This document shows, piece by piece, positions 6,354 to 49,849 of a stretch of DNA of 58,243 nt. Source of the DNA: a virus. Under the pieces are notes generated by a model, which saw only the letters and a list, made by a program, of their open reading frames with translations, did not search any database and had not been told where the DNA came from. Each line of letters starts with the position of its first letter. The stretch's first letter is position 1. The position numbers were made by a program, and so were the translations under genes. Location of the stretch: positions 1-58,243 of IMG/VR virus record IMGVR_UViG_3300034819_000005. The stretch is one strand, 5' to 3'.

Positions 6354-6680
6354 TTAGTTCTCCTTCTCTGGGAGTTGGGCCATCCGCCGGAGGTCAGCCA
6401 GTTCCACATCCCCCTTGGCCGATGCCAAGGTAAAGTCAGCTAACTTCCAGCTCCCATTGTAGGTTTTGCTGACAGCTTCTCCACAGCTCTGGCAGACACT
6501 GAGGAGTTGGGTGACATCGTTCTCACAGGTGGCCTTCCCAGTCTCAAGGGAGCGGGTCTTCTGAGTCATATAGCAGATGGCGGTTGGCTTAAGGGTATGC
6601 TTATGGGATGGGTAGAGGAGGGCTATTCCAGTTAATACAACCATCCCCACCACCACCCCAACAATGAATGTTATCCACAT
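6354..6680 (-). CDS. Membrane-anchored protein with CxxC motif
   Basis: This 108-residue protein begins with a strong transmembrane helix (ITFIVGVVVGMVVLTGIALL, residues 3-22) followed by a soluble part with C(x16)C and CQSCG cysteines. Topology is uncertain; a small zinc- or thiol-containing domain tethered to the inner membrane is plausible. It lies directly downstream of the structured intergenic region at 6734-6817. Confidence 0.65.
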   Translation of the reverse strand: MWITFIVGVVVGMVVLTGIALLYPSHKHTLKPTAICYMTQKTRSLETGKATCENDVTQLLSVCQSCGEAVSKTYNGSWKLADFTLASAKGDVELADLRRMAQLPEKEN

Positions 6681-6733
6681 GGTTCAATGGCCTCCCCTAT
6701 CCACTCTATCCTTTTTGGGGGATGGAGCAGATA

Positions 6734-6817
6734 GGGGAAGAGGCCCTCTCTGTGGCTTACGCCACAAATGAGCCAGTTTTCACCGGCTCACTTCCATAGT
6801 CAAGAGGGCCAATCCCC
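6734..6817 (-). ncRNA. Three-way-junction structured RNA with two GNRA tetraloops
   Basis: Read on the minus strand, an outer helix (6813-6817 plus 6803-6810 with 6742-6749 plus 6734-6738; 13 pairs) encloses two hairpins. One has a 9-bp stem TGAGCCGGT closed by GAAA (6769-6790). The other has a 5-bp stem GTGGC closed by GTAA (6752-6765). Both loops are GNRA only when read in the direction of the neighbouring genes, which argues for a folded RNA on that strand. No terminator T-run follows. It sits between the classical AAA+ gene and a membrane-protein gene; no known riboswitch class is recognised. Confidence 0.5.
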
Positions 6818-6887
6818 CATTCCAACCGGATGAACGGGTGGAAAGTTGGTGGACCGGAGCCTTTACCCAAAGACCCGGCCCAAGGGG

Positions 6888-8456: not shown

Positions 8457-8472
8457 TGCTAATGACCTCCTT

Positions 8473-8559
8473 CCCAGCCAAATGTGCTGGGATGTTACCT
8501 TTCCCTCTGGTCAAGAGGGATAGGGTTGGTTGATGGTTATCCACCCTTATTGCGGGTGG
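8473..8559 (-). promoter_or_regulatory. Three tandem hairpins in the AAA+ gene leader
   Basis: Inverted repeats CCACCC/GGGTGG (8541-8559), TCCCTCT/AGAGGGA (8502-8520) and CCCAGC/GCTGGG (8473-8491) follow one another. The last abuts the AAGGAGG ribosome site. They probably shape translation or mRNA stability of the AAA+ message. No T-run follows, so they do not look like terminators. Confidence 0.5.
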
Positions 8560-8564
8560 GTTGA

Positions 8565-11685: not shown

Positions 11686-11865
11686 CTATTTGGTTTTTGA
11701 ACTTGTTGAATAGCTCAGGCTCCAGCTCCGGCTCAGGCTCCCGCTCCGGCTCCAGCTCCGGCTCCAGCGCCGGCTCCCGCTCCGGCTCCAGCTCAGGCTC
11801 CAGCTCTGGCTCAGGCTCAGGCTCCGGCTCAGGCTCCGGCTCAGGCTCCCAATAATGGCTGTCAT
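11686..11865 (-). CDS. Ser-X dipeptide-repeat protein 2
   Basis: The 59-residue product starts [15 protein letters not shown], continues as (Ser-Arg/Leu/Trp/Gln/Gly)n with one RR, and ends [15 protein letters not shown] lies a few bases before the ATG, and the ribosome site abuts a large hairpin (11875-11946). It resembles the RS-type low-complexity domains of eukaryotic proteins by composition only. It is paralogous to 11150-11323. Confidence 0.58.
11712..11849. repeat. Hexanucleotide tandem array 2 (23 units)
   Basis: About 23 units of RGCTCN in the same phase and orientation as array 1, with slightly more variation (CGCTCC, GCGCCG). The flanking start segments of the two arrays are also similar (ATGACWSCCATYMTTGGG), so the whole unit was duplicated. 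Confidence 0.93.
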
Positions 11866-11874
11866 CACTACCTC

Positions 11875-11946
11875 CAAGCTACCCTCTCTTGCCAGACTCC
11901 TTCATCTGCTACTGATGAAGGAAATCACTTGGGAAAGGGTAGCTTG
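11875..11946 (-). promoter_or_regulatory. Long nested hairpin abutting the repeat-gene ribosome site
   Basis: CAAGCTACCCT (11875-11885) pairs perfectly with AGGGTAGCTTG (11936-11946). Inside, TCCTTCATC (11898-11906) pairs with GATGAAGGA (11914-11922). On the minus-strand mRNA the base of this structure touches the GGAGG of the Ser-X gene, so folding could hide or expose the ribosome site. Confidence 0.55.
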
Positions 11947-11984
11947 CAATTAGTCATTGATCACTCATTGATTGTTACAGTTGC

Positions 11985-16208: not shown

Positions 16209-16340
16209 TCATTTCGTCCTCCGCATGTTCGAACGTATTTCCCTGTACTGTTCATCTGTTAAGGTGTTCGGCGATGCCCATAGAGCAATGGAACCGCCAC
16301 ATATAAATCCGATTACCAGAAGTAACAAAAGGTATTCCAT
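16209..16340 (-). CDS. Tiny membrane protein
   Basis: The 43-residue product MEYLLLLLVIGFICGGSIALW... is one transmembrane helix with a charged C-terminal tail (LTDEQYREIRSNMRRTK). AAAGGAA precedes the ATG at 16340. It lies in an otherwise gene-poor stretch (15973-16495), whose remainder (15973-16208) shows only a short hairpin TTGCCCA-TGG-TGGGCAA at 15997-16013 and repeated GACCGTG words. Confidence 0.55.
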   Translation of the reverse strand: MEYLLLLLVIGFICGGSIALWASPNTLTDEQYREIRSNMRRTK

Positions 16341-24977: not shown

Positions 24978-25226
24978 ATGGTTAAGGCCATGCTAACTCC
25001 CAAAGTGGAATGGTTAAGCTACCCAACCCACAGCACTGACGGCTGGCGTGAGGTCAAGCTAGCAATAGATGGCCAAGTAGCCAGCTTTGCCGTGCGTGAA
25101 GAGGACTGGTTTCTCCACCCCACCGAGGAAGGGCGCAACGCCATGCTTGTCCGGCAGGCAACTTCCTACCTGGCTGAGTTTGGCGATTTCCGTATGCAAA
25201 AGGAGCTTCCTCAATGTTCCCAATGA
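24978..25226 (+). CDS. Hypothetical protein
   Basis: This 82-residue mixed alpha/beta protein (EVKLAIDGQVASFAVREEDW) has no recognised family. The ribosome site is weak at both in-frame ATGs (24978, 24990). Its end overlaps the start of the basic micro-gene at 25214. Confidence 0.52.
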   Translation: MVKAMLTPKVEWLSYPTHSTDGWREVKLAIDGQVASFAVREEDWFLHPTEEGRNAMLVRQATSYLAEFGDFRMQKELPQCSQ

Positions 25227-25276
25227 ACAGCACTGAGGTTCGCAACCGCAAAAAGCGGCGTCACAAGCGCAAATAG
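25214..25276 (+). CDS. Basic micro-protein A (20 residues)
   Basis: The product is MFPMNSTEVRNRKKRRHKRK, basic in its second half. AGGAG lies eight bases before the ATG and it overlaps the upstream gene by 13 bp. It shares the Lys/Arg-rich end (KRRHKRK) with micro-proteins at 25949, 26529, 30340 and 43455. A role in DNA charge compensation or RNA binding is only a guess. Confidence 0.5.
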   Translation: MFPMNSTEVRNRKKRRHKRK

Positions 25277-25444
25277 TTATTGCGCTACGGTAGCTCTGCC
25301 ATCGGCCCTGCATCCGCAGGAGCTGGGGTTTAGGCCCCAGTCGATCCGATAGGATCGGTCAGAACTGAGCCAGTGGGCAATAGCCTGCTGAAAGCATATG
25401 GCAGGGTGAAAACCCAGGGGAGCCATATGCAAGTATGACTCCCC
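25266..25444 (+). ncRNA. Multi-hairpin structured RNA with a possible pseudoknot
   Basis: In 180 bases without a gene, successive hairpins form: AGCGCAA/TTGCGCT (25266-25286), CCTGC-ATCC-GCAGG (25307-25320), CTGGGG-N6-CCCCAG (25323-25340) and CGATCC-GATA-GGATCG (25342-25357). Then comes a 9-bp stem GCATATGGC/GCCATATGC (25394-25402 with 25422-25430) around a GGGT-GAAA-ACCC tetraloop. The loop bases GGGGA (25417-25421) can pair with TCCCC (25440-25444), giving an H-type pseudoknot or an alternative stem with TTTT behind. It ends just before the next gene's ribosome site, like a riboswitch or translational control element. Confidence 0.6.
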
Positions 25445-25469
25445 ACACTTTTGATAGGAGACTAGAGCA

Positions 25470-25685
25470 ATGCCTCATGACATCAACGGTAACCTGCTGA
25501 AGGTGGGGGATAAAGTAATAATTCCTGCCACTGTTACAGCGGTTCAGGCTGGTGAGGAGTATTGCAACTTGAGTGTTGAATATGATTATTCAATGCCTCC
25601 TTACACCAGTAAAATGAGTGGAACTTTTAATACCAAACAGGTACTGCTGAGCCCAGAACAGGTTTCAGCAGAGGAGATAGCATAA
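25470..25685 (+). CDS. Small SH3-like conserved phage protein
   Basis: This 71-residue beta-rich protein has the pattern DINGNLLKVGDKVIIPATVTAV...EYCNL...TFNTKQVLL, seen in many phages as an uncharacterised small protein. ATAGGAG lies upstream, immediately behind the structured RNA, so it is the likely regulated target. Confidence 0.72.
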   Translation: MPHDINGNLLKVGDKVIIPATVTAVQAGEEYCNLSVEYDYSMPPYTSKMSGTFNTKQVLLSPEQVSAEEIA

Positions 25686-25897
25686 TGCCAAAGGAAATGG
25701 GCAAGAACCCCTACGATGACAACTTCCTGACTCCCATGGCCGAGCGCCGCCGGGGCAATGAACCAGGCCCAGAGCTAATGAGCGTTCCCCTGATCAGCCC
25801 CCCAGACCCTCTTGGCTACCTGAAGACCAAGAGTGCTGGCTCCAACAGTGAGGGCAAACACGCCAATAACAAGAATCGGGCCAAACGGAAAGCCTAG
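25685..25897 (+). CDS. Small basic-ended protein
   Basis: This 70-residue protein has a Pro/Gly-rich N-terminal half and a basic end (NNKNRAKRKA) similar to the micro-proteins. The start overlaps the preceding stop (TAATG), with AGGAG nine bases upstream. It could be a minor capsid or scaffolding-type component; unproven. Confidence 0.6.
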   Translation: MPKEMGKNPYDDNFLTPMAERRRGNEPGPELMSVPLISPPDPLGYLKTKSAGSNSEGKHANNKNRAKRKA

Positions 25898-47214: not shown

Positions 47215-48516
47215 TCACTTTCCGGTTGTTACATGGCCGTTGCCCCCCACTCTATCCACCTCTGGGGCTGGTGTCAATCCTGATGTTGGAGGGTGCCAGG
47301 TGTCCATATTGCTTTTGCGGAGGTCGGTGCCAATGGCTATTTCAACCCCAATGGCCTCTCCTCCAAGCTCAACCCTGGGCTTGCTCATTATCTGGTGGAG
47401 CTGCCCGCAGACATAATCCACCAGCTCCAAGGGAACATGGAGCACCTTGCTATCGTGGATGACCAGCCTCAGCAGGGGCTCAATGATGGGATCAGCTGCC
47501 AGTTGGATGAGGTCAGCATTCTGAATACAGCTGCCATCCGATTGGGGGATAAAGGCAACAGCCCGTTTGGCATCATCCCCCAGCTTGGTGTAGTCCCTGG
47601 TGGTTGGGTCCCAGTTGAGGACGTTATAGAAGTAATGGCGGACACCGAAGTGGTTATCCAGGTAGGTCTGGCGGCTGGCCAAGCGGAGGACATTCTGGTG
47701 CCACCGCCGGATGGGCGCAAACTCACTGAAATACAGCTCGATGTAGTCTTTGGCTGCCTTCTGGGTTGGAAAAGTCTCCGGGTGCTCATCAACCAGGCCA
47801 TAGGGGGAGAGCAGGTAGTTGACCCCATGGTTCCCCCTCTTGGCATCATCGTATTCCTTGGGGAAGTTCTTCTTGATGGCCTTGCACTGGCGACGGAGCT
47901 CGGCAAAGGGGAGGTTGGGGTCGATGGGTGTACCCATCCGGCGTGCAGCCATGTAGCCATGAAGGCTGGCTTTGCAGATGCGGATGTAGCTGGGGTCTCC
48001 AGCCAATACCCCAACAATGACCGCCTCGATGCCCTCGTAGTCAGCCTCAACCAGGACATGCCCAGGACTGGCAACCATGGTCCCACGGATGGCCTCAGCC
48101 AGCTCATGGTTGCGGATGGGGATATTCTGGAGGTTGTCGTTGCGGCTGGACTTGCGCCAGGTTGAGGGGTGGAAGCCATACTGGGTGGTGACATGACCCT
48201 CAGCATTGACCTGGTAGATATACCTGGAGATGGCTGTCTTTTTCTCCCGGCAATCCAGGATGGTCCTGAAGACTGGGTGGCGCTTGGCGAATCGCTTGAG
48301 ATGTTTGGCCTCGGTGGTTGTCCGGTCCTCACCCCTCTTTTTGGGCATCTTCAACTTGAGACTGGTGATTAGACGGCCAACGTCCCCCTCCTCCCCTGGG
48401 CTACCTGGGTTGAAGGGTTGCCGGAGGCTGTATTTGGTAACTAGCCCAGTCCCCTTACAGGTTGAACAGGTTTTGGGCTTTGGGGGCTTCCTCGGCTTTC
48501 GGGGGGACTTTGGCAC
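47215..48516 (-). CDS. DNA polymerase A family, polymerase half
   Basis: This part is 433 residues from the GTG at 48516 (frame open from 48528). It carries family A motifs: SSRNDNLQNIP (about 127-137), motif A LVEADYEGIE (D163), an O-helix-like AKRGNHGVNYLLSPYG and motif C VIHDS (H358-D359, Ser instead of the usual Glu). It lacks an exonuclease. Its first residues complete a CxxC pair (CSTCKGTG) whose first half CEKCGG ends the preceding frame. An internal GGAGG lies before the GTG. See the finding on the split. Confidence 0.85.
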   Translation of the reverse strand: MPKSPRKPRKPPKPKTCSTCKGTGLVTKYSLRQPFNPGSPGEEGDVGRLITSLKLKMPKKRGEDRTTTEAKHLKRFAKRHPVFRTILDCREKKTAISRYIYQVNAEGHVTTQYGFHPSTWRKSSRNDNLQNIPIRNHELAEAIRGTMVASPGHVLVEADYEGIEAVIVGVLAGDPSYIRICKASLHGYMAARRMGTPIDPNLPFAELRRQCKAIKKNFPKEYDDAKRGNHGVNYLLSPYGLVDEHPETFPTQKAAKDYIELYFSEFAPIRRWHQNVLRLASRQTYLDNHFGVRHYFYNVLNWDPTTRDYTKLGDDAKRAVAFIPQSDGSCIQNADLIQLAADPIIEPLLRLVIHDSKVLHVPLELVDYVCGQLHQIMSKPRVELGGEAIGVEIAIGTDLRKSNMDTWHPPTSGLTPAPEVDRVGGNGHVTTGK

Positions 48517-49849
48517 CAATTCCTCCACATTTCTCGCAGGTTAGGGTCTCGGTGATGTGTTGGGGGGTGATAGTCTTGGGCCCCTTCTTCCACGTTTTCA
48601 GCTTGCGGACGGACTCAGGGACCTCAAGCTGGAGCCTGGCTAGAGCTAACTGGTGTTCAACCTCCAGCCTGGCCTTTAGCTCGGCTTGTTTGGAGGGGTC
48701 GATGAGGATTCCCCTTGGGCCCATTCGTTTGAGGATTGAGCCAGTGGCTTGGCAATGGGTTTGGAATGCCTGCCATCTACCCTGTTTATCCAAAGCTGAC
48801 CTGATGCCAAGATAATTACGATAAGTGGCGTCACTATCAATGGCACTATAGAGTGGAAGATCAGACTCAGACAAGTGCTTCCAAGCAGCAAGATCAGTGA
48901 AAAAAGGAGACACAAACCCCAACGATTTGGGAAGGTCCGACTGTAGAAAATGCCACATCCACATCGCATCTATCACCTCTCCGTTGATGTTACAGCCATT
49001 GGCTATCAGGCGGGGTTCGTCAAAGCTGGCGTTCCACATGATCAGTTGACGGCGGGTTGGAAGCATGGCCCTGAGCCAGCTGATGTAGGGCTCTGACCAG
49101 GGGAAGGTTGCAGCCGTCATGGGAGCCACACTGATGCTCACTCTGACGATGGTGTAGGAGGGGTCTTCTTCGGCTTCTTCCTCATCCACCTTTGAGCTGA
49201 TGGGGGTTTCGATGTCGATGCCCATAGGACCAGACCCGGAAGTAACATACTTTTCAAGATGTTCTGGCGGGGCATCAATGAGGTAGCTGATGGACTGGCG
49301 GGTGAATCCACCTTTGGCAATCTCCTCAGCACGTTTAAAGGCATAAGCGGCGGCTCCAAAATATTTGTGGTTGGACTGCATGATAAAGCTGGGGTGGAAG
49401 GTGGGGACAGCTGGAATCCCCCAGTGGGTGTCATGAACATAGGCTTGGCGGGCCTGGATACCACTGACTCCACAGCACCTCCTCAACGCTACGTTCCCCA
49501 ATGGAATGATGACCTTGGGCTTCATGGCCCGAATAGTGTCGTCCAGATAGGGCCCACATTGGGTAATGGCTGGGGCTGACTCATCACTGTCGGTCCAGCC
49601 CAGGCGAGGGGGACGGCAACACATGGTATTGGTGATCAGGAAGTCGCTCCGGCTCCGGCCAATCATCCTGATGAGCCGGTCCAGGTATGACCCAGCAGCT
49701 CCTGCAAAGGGCTTCCCCTGCCTGATCTCGTCATTCCATGGGCTATCCCCGACAATGAGGATGCCCGAGCTGCCCCTGCCATCGGGAAGGAGGCGCTTTT
49801 CTCCTACCTCTTGTTGGGAACAGCCCGAGCAATAGGGACCCTCAACCAT
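48455..49849 (-). CDS. UDG-like domain fused to 3'-5' exonuclease (polymerase N-half)
   Basis: This 464-residue protein has a family 4-type uracil-DNA glycosylase-like N-terminus (GDSPWNDEIRQGKPFAGAAG, ITNTMCCRPPR, LGNVALRRC, FHPSFIM, with C7/C10/C78/C98 in Fe-S positions). A DEDDy exonuclease follows (GIDIET with D212/E214, NASFDE with D277, YSAIDSDATY with D338). It ends in the CEKCGG half-knuckle, a Lys/Pro linker and a stop at 48455, in the +1 frame relative to the polymerase half. Confidence 0.85.
   Translation of the reverse strand: MVEGPYCSGCSQQEVGEKRLLPDGRGSSGILIVGDSPWNDEIRQGKPFAGAAGSYLDRLIRMIGRSRSDFLITNTMCCRPPRLGWTDSDESAPAITQCGPYLDDTIRAMKPKVIIPLGNVALRRCCGVSGIQARQAYVHDTHWGIPAVPTFHPSFIMQSNHKYFGAAAYAFKRAEEIAKGGFTRQSISYLIDAPPEHLEKYVTSGSGPMGIDIETPISSKVDEEEAEEDPSYTIVRVSISVAPMTAATFPWSEPYISWLRAMLPTRRQLIMWNASFDEPRLIANGCNINGEVIDAMWMWHFLQSDLPKSLGFVSPFFTDLAAWKHLSESDLPLYSAIDSDATYRNYLGIRSALDKQGRWQAFQTHCQATGSILKRMGPRGILIDPSKQAELKARLEVEHQLALARLQLEVPESVRKLKTWKKGPKTITPQHITETLTCEKCGGIGAKVPPKAEEAPKAQNLFNL

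Follow-up and report, generated by a model that had tools for sequence, protein, structure and literature searches.

A putative structured leader RNA in the capsid gene cluster of an unclassified phage

The mRNA leader of T4 gene 32 contains a pseudoknot that has counterparts in T2 and RB69, is followed by A+U-rich UUAA repeats, and binds gp32 (PMC3014915). The manA and wcaG motifs of cyanophages are candidate structured leaders that are carried by phages and form conserved families (PMC2864571). The RNA described here lies in a virus record of 58,243 bases, which was analysed over its whole length and is called the window below. Like the T4 gene 32 leader, the window RNA is part of a phage mRNA and has a candidate pseudoknot upstream of a ribosome site. 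However, it is not conserved, its tail (25445-25469, ACACTTTTGATAGGAGACTAGAGCA) contains no UUAA repeats, and a hairpin (hairpin B) competes with the knot. It resembles the manA and wcaG motifs in being a phage-carried candidate leader, but it has no second member. A similar arrangement was found in the RNA that we call R2 (L061-L099), which is a structured RNA in the corresponding part of the operon and likewise stands immediately behind a tiny basic ORF and close in front of a Shine-Dalgarno sequence. Unlike the window RNA, R2 shows covariation and contains an invariant core (UGGUGGGGGACU ... GCAAGACAGG). The window RNA was rejected as a member of R2 because it scored at most 0.8 bits with the filters off, compared with 82-138 bits for the members.

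Genome setting and fold strength

The terminase, portal and major head protein genes of the virus stand in line on the + strand, with several small genes between the portal gene and a scaffold-like gene. The structured RNA is located in this capsid gene cluster, between a 20-codon ORF and a 71-codon gene (gene 25470; Table 1). No match came from phage records searched with the DNA and the portal protein, from viral contigs scanned for portal and terminase, or from a host search by capsid alignment against cellular genomes, and a tRNA/tmRNA search found none. On the - strand at 47215-49849, a PHROG 17 DNA polymerase is divided between two overlapping ORFs (47215-48528 and 48455-49849), which match different parts of the PHROG 17 profile.

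The predicted fold of 25266-25480 has an energy of -97.2 kcal/mol, compared with -69.8 +/- 4.7 kcal/mol in dinucleotide-preserving shuffles (z -5.84, 0/200). For the exact gap between the two genes, 25277-25469, the + strand has z -5.23 and the - strand no more than -3.26; the + strand is therefore the likelier functional strand. The difference fits the G-U pairs of H2 and H5, which are possible on the + strand alone. This gap has the third strongest fold (z -5.9) among 32 intergenic gaps of the window, in a ranking that covers gaps longer than about 55 bases and is approximate because the gene calls came from a simple script. Only 6681-6887 and 11878-11984, both on the - strand, are stronger, and 8457-8564 comes next. 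This phage has four strongly structured gaps, of which 25277-25469 is one. The gap 6681-6887 (- strand, z -7.7), which folds most strongly in the window, is a multi-hairpin leader with a 16-bp stem at its end. The 3' arm of this stem carries GGGGAGG, the likely Shine-Dalgarno sequence of gene 6354-6680, and its loop ATCCCCCA is complementary to the upstream TGGGGGAT. At the gap 11878-11984, a long stable hairpin (z about -4 to -7) precedes an ORF at about 11688-11865 (- strand) that has serine at nearly every second residue.

All hairpins listed in a first-pass annotation of the stretch were found in place, including the 9-bp stem with a GAAA-capped inner helix, and the downstream ORF and its ribosome site were confirmed as well. 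With about even confidence, we regard the stretch between the tiny ORF and gene 25470 as a cis-acting structured leader, i.e., a translation or mRNA element, in the structural-gene operon. Its structure, position and comparison with relatives were obtained by computation, and we infer that it affects expression.

Table 1. Coordinates of the leader, its neighbouring genes, and structured RNAs of related phages
Feature	Coordinates	Strand	Remarks
Tiny ORF	25214-25276	+	20 codons, Lys/Arg-rich (MFPMNSTEVRNRKKRRHKRK); gene preceding the structured RNA
H0	25266-25286	+	7-bp hairpin across the stop codon of the tiny ORF
Segment matching L008	25304-25323	+	GGCCCTGCATCCGCAGGAGC; 17/20 bases match the ribosome-site region of the next gene in L008; contains H1
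H1	25307-25320	+	hairpin inside 25304-25323
H2	25322-25341	+	8-bp hairpin with G-U pairs
H3	25342-25357	+	6-bp hairpin
H4	25359-25368	+	3-bp hairpin
H5	25371-25390	+	8-bp hairpin with two G-U pairs
Hairpin A	25394-25430	+	9-bp stem 25394-25402/25422-25430; inner GGGT-GAAA-ACCC helix 25404-25415
Hairpin B	25417-25444	+	GGGGAGCCATA/TATGACTCCCC, 10/11 pairs; arms 25417-25427/25434-25444; excludes A
Shine-Dalgarno of gene 25470	25456-25460	+	AGGAG, 11 nt past hairpin B
Gene 25470	25470-25685	+	71 aa (MPHDINGN...); transferable small phage protein
Gene 25685	25685-25897	+	next gene; directly behind the tiny ORF in the close relatives L005, L007, L008
R2 examples	L080 3939-4068; L096 3115-3247; L072 7958-8087
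Leaders complementary to a Shine-Dalgarno	L004 7606-7690; L017, L019, L020, L023, L024, L043, L055, L060, L090, L095 and others		just upstream of a tiny ORF

Alternative hairpins at the 3' end of the leader

The first-pass annotation had pointed to complementarity between GGGGA (25417-25421) and TCCCC (25440-25444). This complementarity holds but was understated, as it is part of an 11-nt inverted repeat (25417-25427/25434-25444, 91% complementary), which forms hairpin B. Because hairpins A and B both use 25422-25427, they are mutually exclusive. For the full RNA, the predicted energies are -86.0 kcal/mol with B and -80.5 kcal/mol with A, favouring B by 5.5 kcal/mol with the pseudoknot energy not included. 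Length-by-length folding predicted A for RNAs ending no later than 25441 and B for those that reach 25445, and B is predicted to replace A once transcription passes 25444. The hallmark of an expression platform, i.e., exclusive structures near a ribosome site, is thus seen in the A/B exchange at 25441-25445, by prediction only.

For the same complementarity, two alternatives had been proposed, an H-type pseudoknot and a mutually exclusive, terminator-like stem. The pseudoknot is sterically possible together with A, and the energy of its stem was reached by 3/500 shuffles. However, 151 of 2586 windows along this genome contain stems as strong, which makes the knot unremarkable, and we therefore place little weight on it. 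The nested hairpin B is a strong competitor of A combined with the GGGGA/TCCCC pseudoknot. The exclusive stem corresponds to the predicted hairpin B, but its reading as a terminator fails. With its G+C-rich stem and nearby T's, B resembles intrinsic terminators; unlike them, it has no T run immediately after the stem, the TTTT at 25449-25452 beginning 4 nt past it. A terminator scan of the window gave no match on the + strand and a single one on the - strand, fewer than by chance. An intrinsic terminator was rejected on these grounds.

The same observations bear on a transcription attenuator, in which B would terminate transcription and A would prevent termination. Such a device could make use of the G+C-rich stem of B, its exclusion of A and the TTTT, but we consider it most improbable in view of the empty + strand scan and the run of only four T's, which starts past the stem. 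The sequence does not show how hairpin B would act on expression, because B leaves the Shine-Dalgarno sequence uncovered and has no T run at its end.

Searches for relatives of the RNA and of gene 25470

An Rfam search with gathering and permissive thresholds found no family for the window RNA, in line with the earlier remark that no known aptamer is recognised. The comparison covered 80 relatives of the major head protein in the viral collection, down to 54% identity. In these loci, blastn returned short weak pieces of the window RNA at most, and L004-L008, the phages closest by capsid protein, lack it. The exact pattern GGGGAGCCATATGC had 39 matches in viral contigs, none of them with matching flanks. 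R1, a covariance model with the window RNA as its single sequence, gave no convincing match in 89 other loci; its matches in L073 and L079 (E = 0.1) were taken as chance because they were not repeated in 16 sister loci.

Gene 25470, described at first as a small conserved gene, does have relatives elsewhere, at 15 other viral loci (38-59% identical). They lie in other contexts. The window RNA was not found at these loci, and it is absent before the gene in each of the 12 whose upstream sequence was read; for the remaining three, L030-L032, which equal L028-L029 in identity and coverage, the judgement is based on the match table and on blastn. The label "riboswitch-like" is not borne out, as there is no conserved aptamer and no copy of the RNA was found in the 80 capsid relatives or the 15 gene 25470 loci. 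The first-pass annotation had named related phages without the stem and the pseudoknot complementarity as evidence against its reading, and by this measure the reading as a conserved riboswitch fails. The window RNA is an orphan in the data searched. Because it has no homologue there, no covariation can back the pairings of A, B or the pseudoknot.

The 71-aa protein has a small beta fold in its predicted model, which gave no significant fold match. All Pfam matches were below threshold (PF24203, E 0.029; YjdM, E 0.019, for a relative). On these results, we rejected a role in RNA binding. A ligand-binding riboswitch or a protein-binding autoregulatory leader would use H1-H5 as the sensor and either the A/B pair or the pseudoknot as the expression platform. 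The sensor-like multi-hairpin part and the exclusive end hairpins suit this explanation, and T4 gene 32 offers an example of a phage leader pseudoknot that serves autoregulation (PMC3014915). We nevertheless consider it unlikely for the window RNA, which has neither an Rfam match nor relatives, is not linked to gene 25470 at other loci, and precedes a gene whose product belongs to no convincing RNA-binding family or fold.

The same operon interval in related phages

The gene order is kept in the relatives: portal gene, small genes, tiny basic ORF, a spacer, the homologue of gene 25685, scaffold gene and capsid gene. The three close relatives L005, L007 and L008 have a spacer of only about 30-72 nt at this place, from the tiny ORF to the homologue of gene 25685. 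In 13 relatives, which were picked for a clear start of the next gene and not randomly, the gene after the tiny ORF has a strong hairpin 5-17 nt upstream of its Shine-Dalgarno sequence. The spacing of hairpin B, 11 nt before AGGAG, falls within this range, and we therefore take B as the functional core and H2-H5 and A as an addition. Across the 14 genomes, including the window, the best hairpin at this point had a mean energy of -20.5 kcal/mol versus -11.9 kcal/mol in shuffles. It reached p <= 0.05 in 10/14 genomes, compared with 1/14 for control positions before the capsid gene and 1/14 for those inside it. The window's own best hairpin is only marginal when taken alone (p 0.073).

The segment of the window that resembles L008 (Table 1) is equally far from the end of the tiny ORF in both phages, as counted from the stop codon, and 1/500 mononucleotide shuffles reach this similarity. 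If this short match to one relative, judged against mononucleotide shuffles, marks the old ribosome site of gene 25685, then the about 360 bp past it (H2 to B together with gene 25470) would be a later arrival, which is suggestive only. The upstream hairpins and gene 25470 look like a lineage-specific insertion. By eye, LAGLIDADG-like ORFs were noticed in the operon interval of L004 (8029-8460) and L020 (7773-8225), and because of them we regard the interval as an insertion hot spot. It is possible, though doubtful, that the leader is mainly insertion debris, i.e., that a gene 25470 cassette entered where gene 25685 once had its ribosome site and that the hairpins are inverted repeats of the cassette with little or no regulatory role. 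The similarity to L008, the extra ORF in L004, and the occurrence of gene 25470 relatives in other contexts without the RNA point that way. However, the excess stability, the + strand bias with its G-U pairs, and the positionally equivalent hairpin in relatives speak against debris, and the L008 match is short and comes from one relative. Two further observations were made in capsid relatives. In L020 (10001-11186), the major head protein gene is broken after codon 27 by about 200 bp, with the reading resuming at about 10293, and L062 has a match to the Rfam abiF RNA (RF03085, 40.2 bits) at 16253-16299 on the - strand.

For the cis-acting leader that we favour, the hairpin before the ribosome site would block run-on, so that the tiny ORF and the next gene are translated separately. 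It would also keep the ribosome site exposed, and may protect its segment of the late mRNA and so shape stability. The extra hairpins (H2-H5 and A) may have come with gene 25470 in the window lineage. They would make B depend on the folding order, with A forming first and B replacing it after about 25445. The choice between A and B could add timing and tune the amount of the 71-aa protein relative to the tiny peptide. No ligand would be required for this action.

Tiny ORFs of 11-24 codons, very rich in Lys, Arg and His, were seen in the portal-to-scaffold interval of most capsid relatives (e.g., MARRKRHSKRK, MARRGRKHRRGGKRK and MASRGGRRSTRRRRTAARK), and gene callers easily miss them. Most capsid relatives encode one or two such Lys/Arg-rich ORFs. 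R2 is a separate structured RNA of about 130 nt that lies after the second tiny ORF in L061-L099, between the tiny basic ORFs and the next gene, and ends beside the Shine-Dalgarno sequence (z down to -7.7). It has the core UGGUGGGGGACU ... GAAAGCGUUCGAUGCGCAAGACAGGA and occurs in at least 28 distinct versions. Base pairs changed on both sides were found at 9 pairs (30 cells versus 13.4 in shuffles). The R2 model recovered 27 members with E <= 1e-16 among the loci and none in the window. R2 is not in Rfam, and the matches of the pattern GATGYGCAAGACAGG in cellular genomes all lacked the second core motif, as by chance. We consider R2 a candidate riboswitch or protein-leader RNA.

In many other relatives, a stem loop upstream of the tiny basic ORF is complementary to its Shine-Dalgarno sequence and could form a translation-blocking pseudoknot; in L061-L099, an extended hairpin hides this Shine-Dalgarno sequence instead. 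As a group, the leaders are more complementary to their own Shine-Dalgarno sequences than capsid-gene leaders (median p 0.24 versus 0.70), with single leaders rarely significant. Pairing in the pseudoknot is preserved in 86.5% of cells versus 79.7% in shuffles, and three pairs changed on both sides. The control is modest; on covariation, one slid version came close to the same score. In the leaders of the tiny ORFs, a pseudoknot apparently masks the Shine-Dalgarno sequence. Homology of the window RNA with these leaders was rejected: the order of the elements differs, the inner hairpin standing before the knot strand in the window RNA and after it in the relatives, and CTCCCC is not a Shine-Dalgarno sequence.

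A broader idea, which we regard as improbable, is that the window RNA is a rewired version of a control module of the phage group, in which mutual regulation links the tiny Arg/Lys-rich peptides (11-24 aa) with the structured RNAs around their genes. The peptide would bind the pseudoknot and hairpin leaders of its operon and thereby set the ratio of peptide to neighbouring virion proteins during assembly. R2 and the Shine-Dalgarno-hiding leaders are more interesting than the window RNA itself. This phage group packs structured RNAs around tiny basic peptide genes, including a covariation-supported family new to Rfam. A two-state folded leader in a capsid operon, if true, would be a further example of virion protein ratios being controlled at the RNA level.
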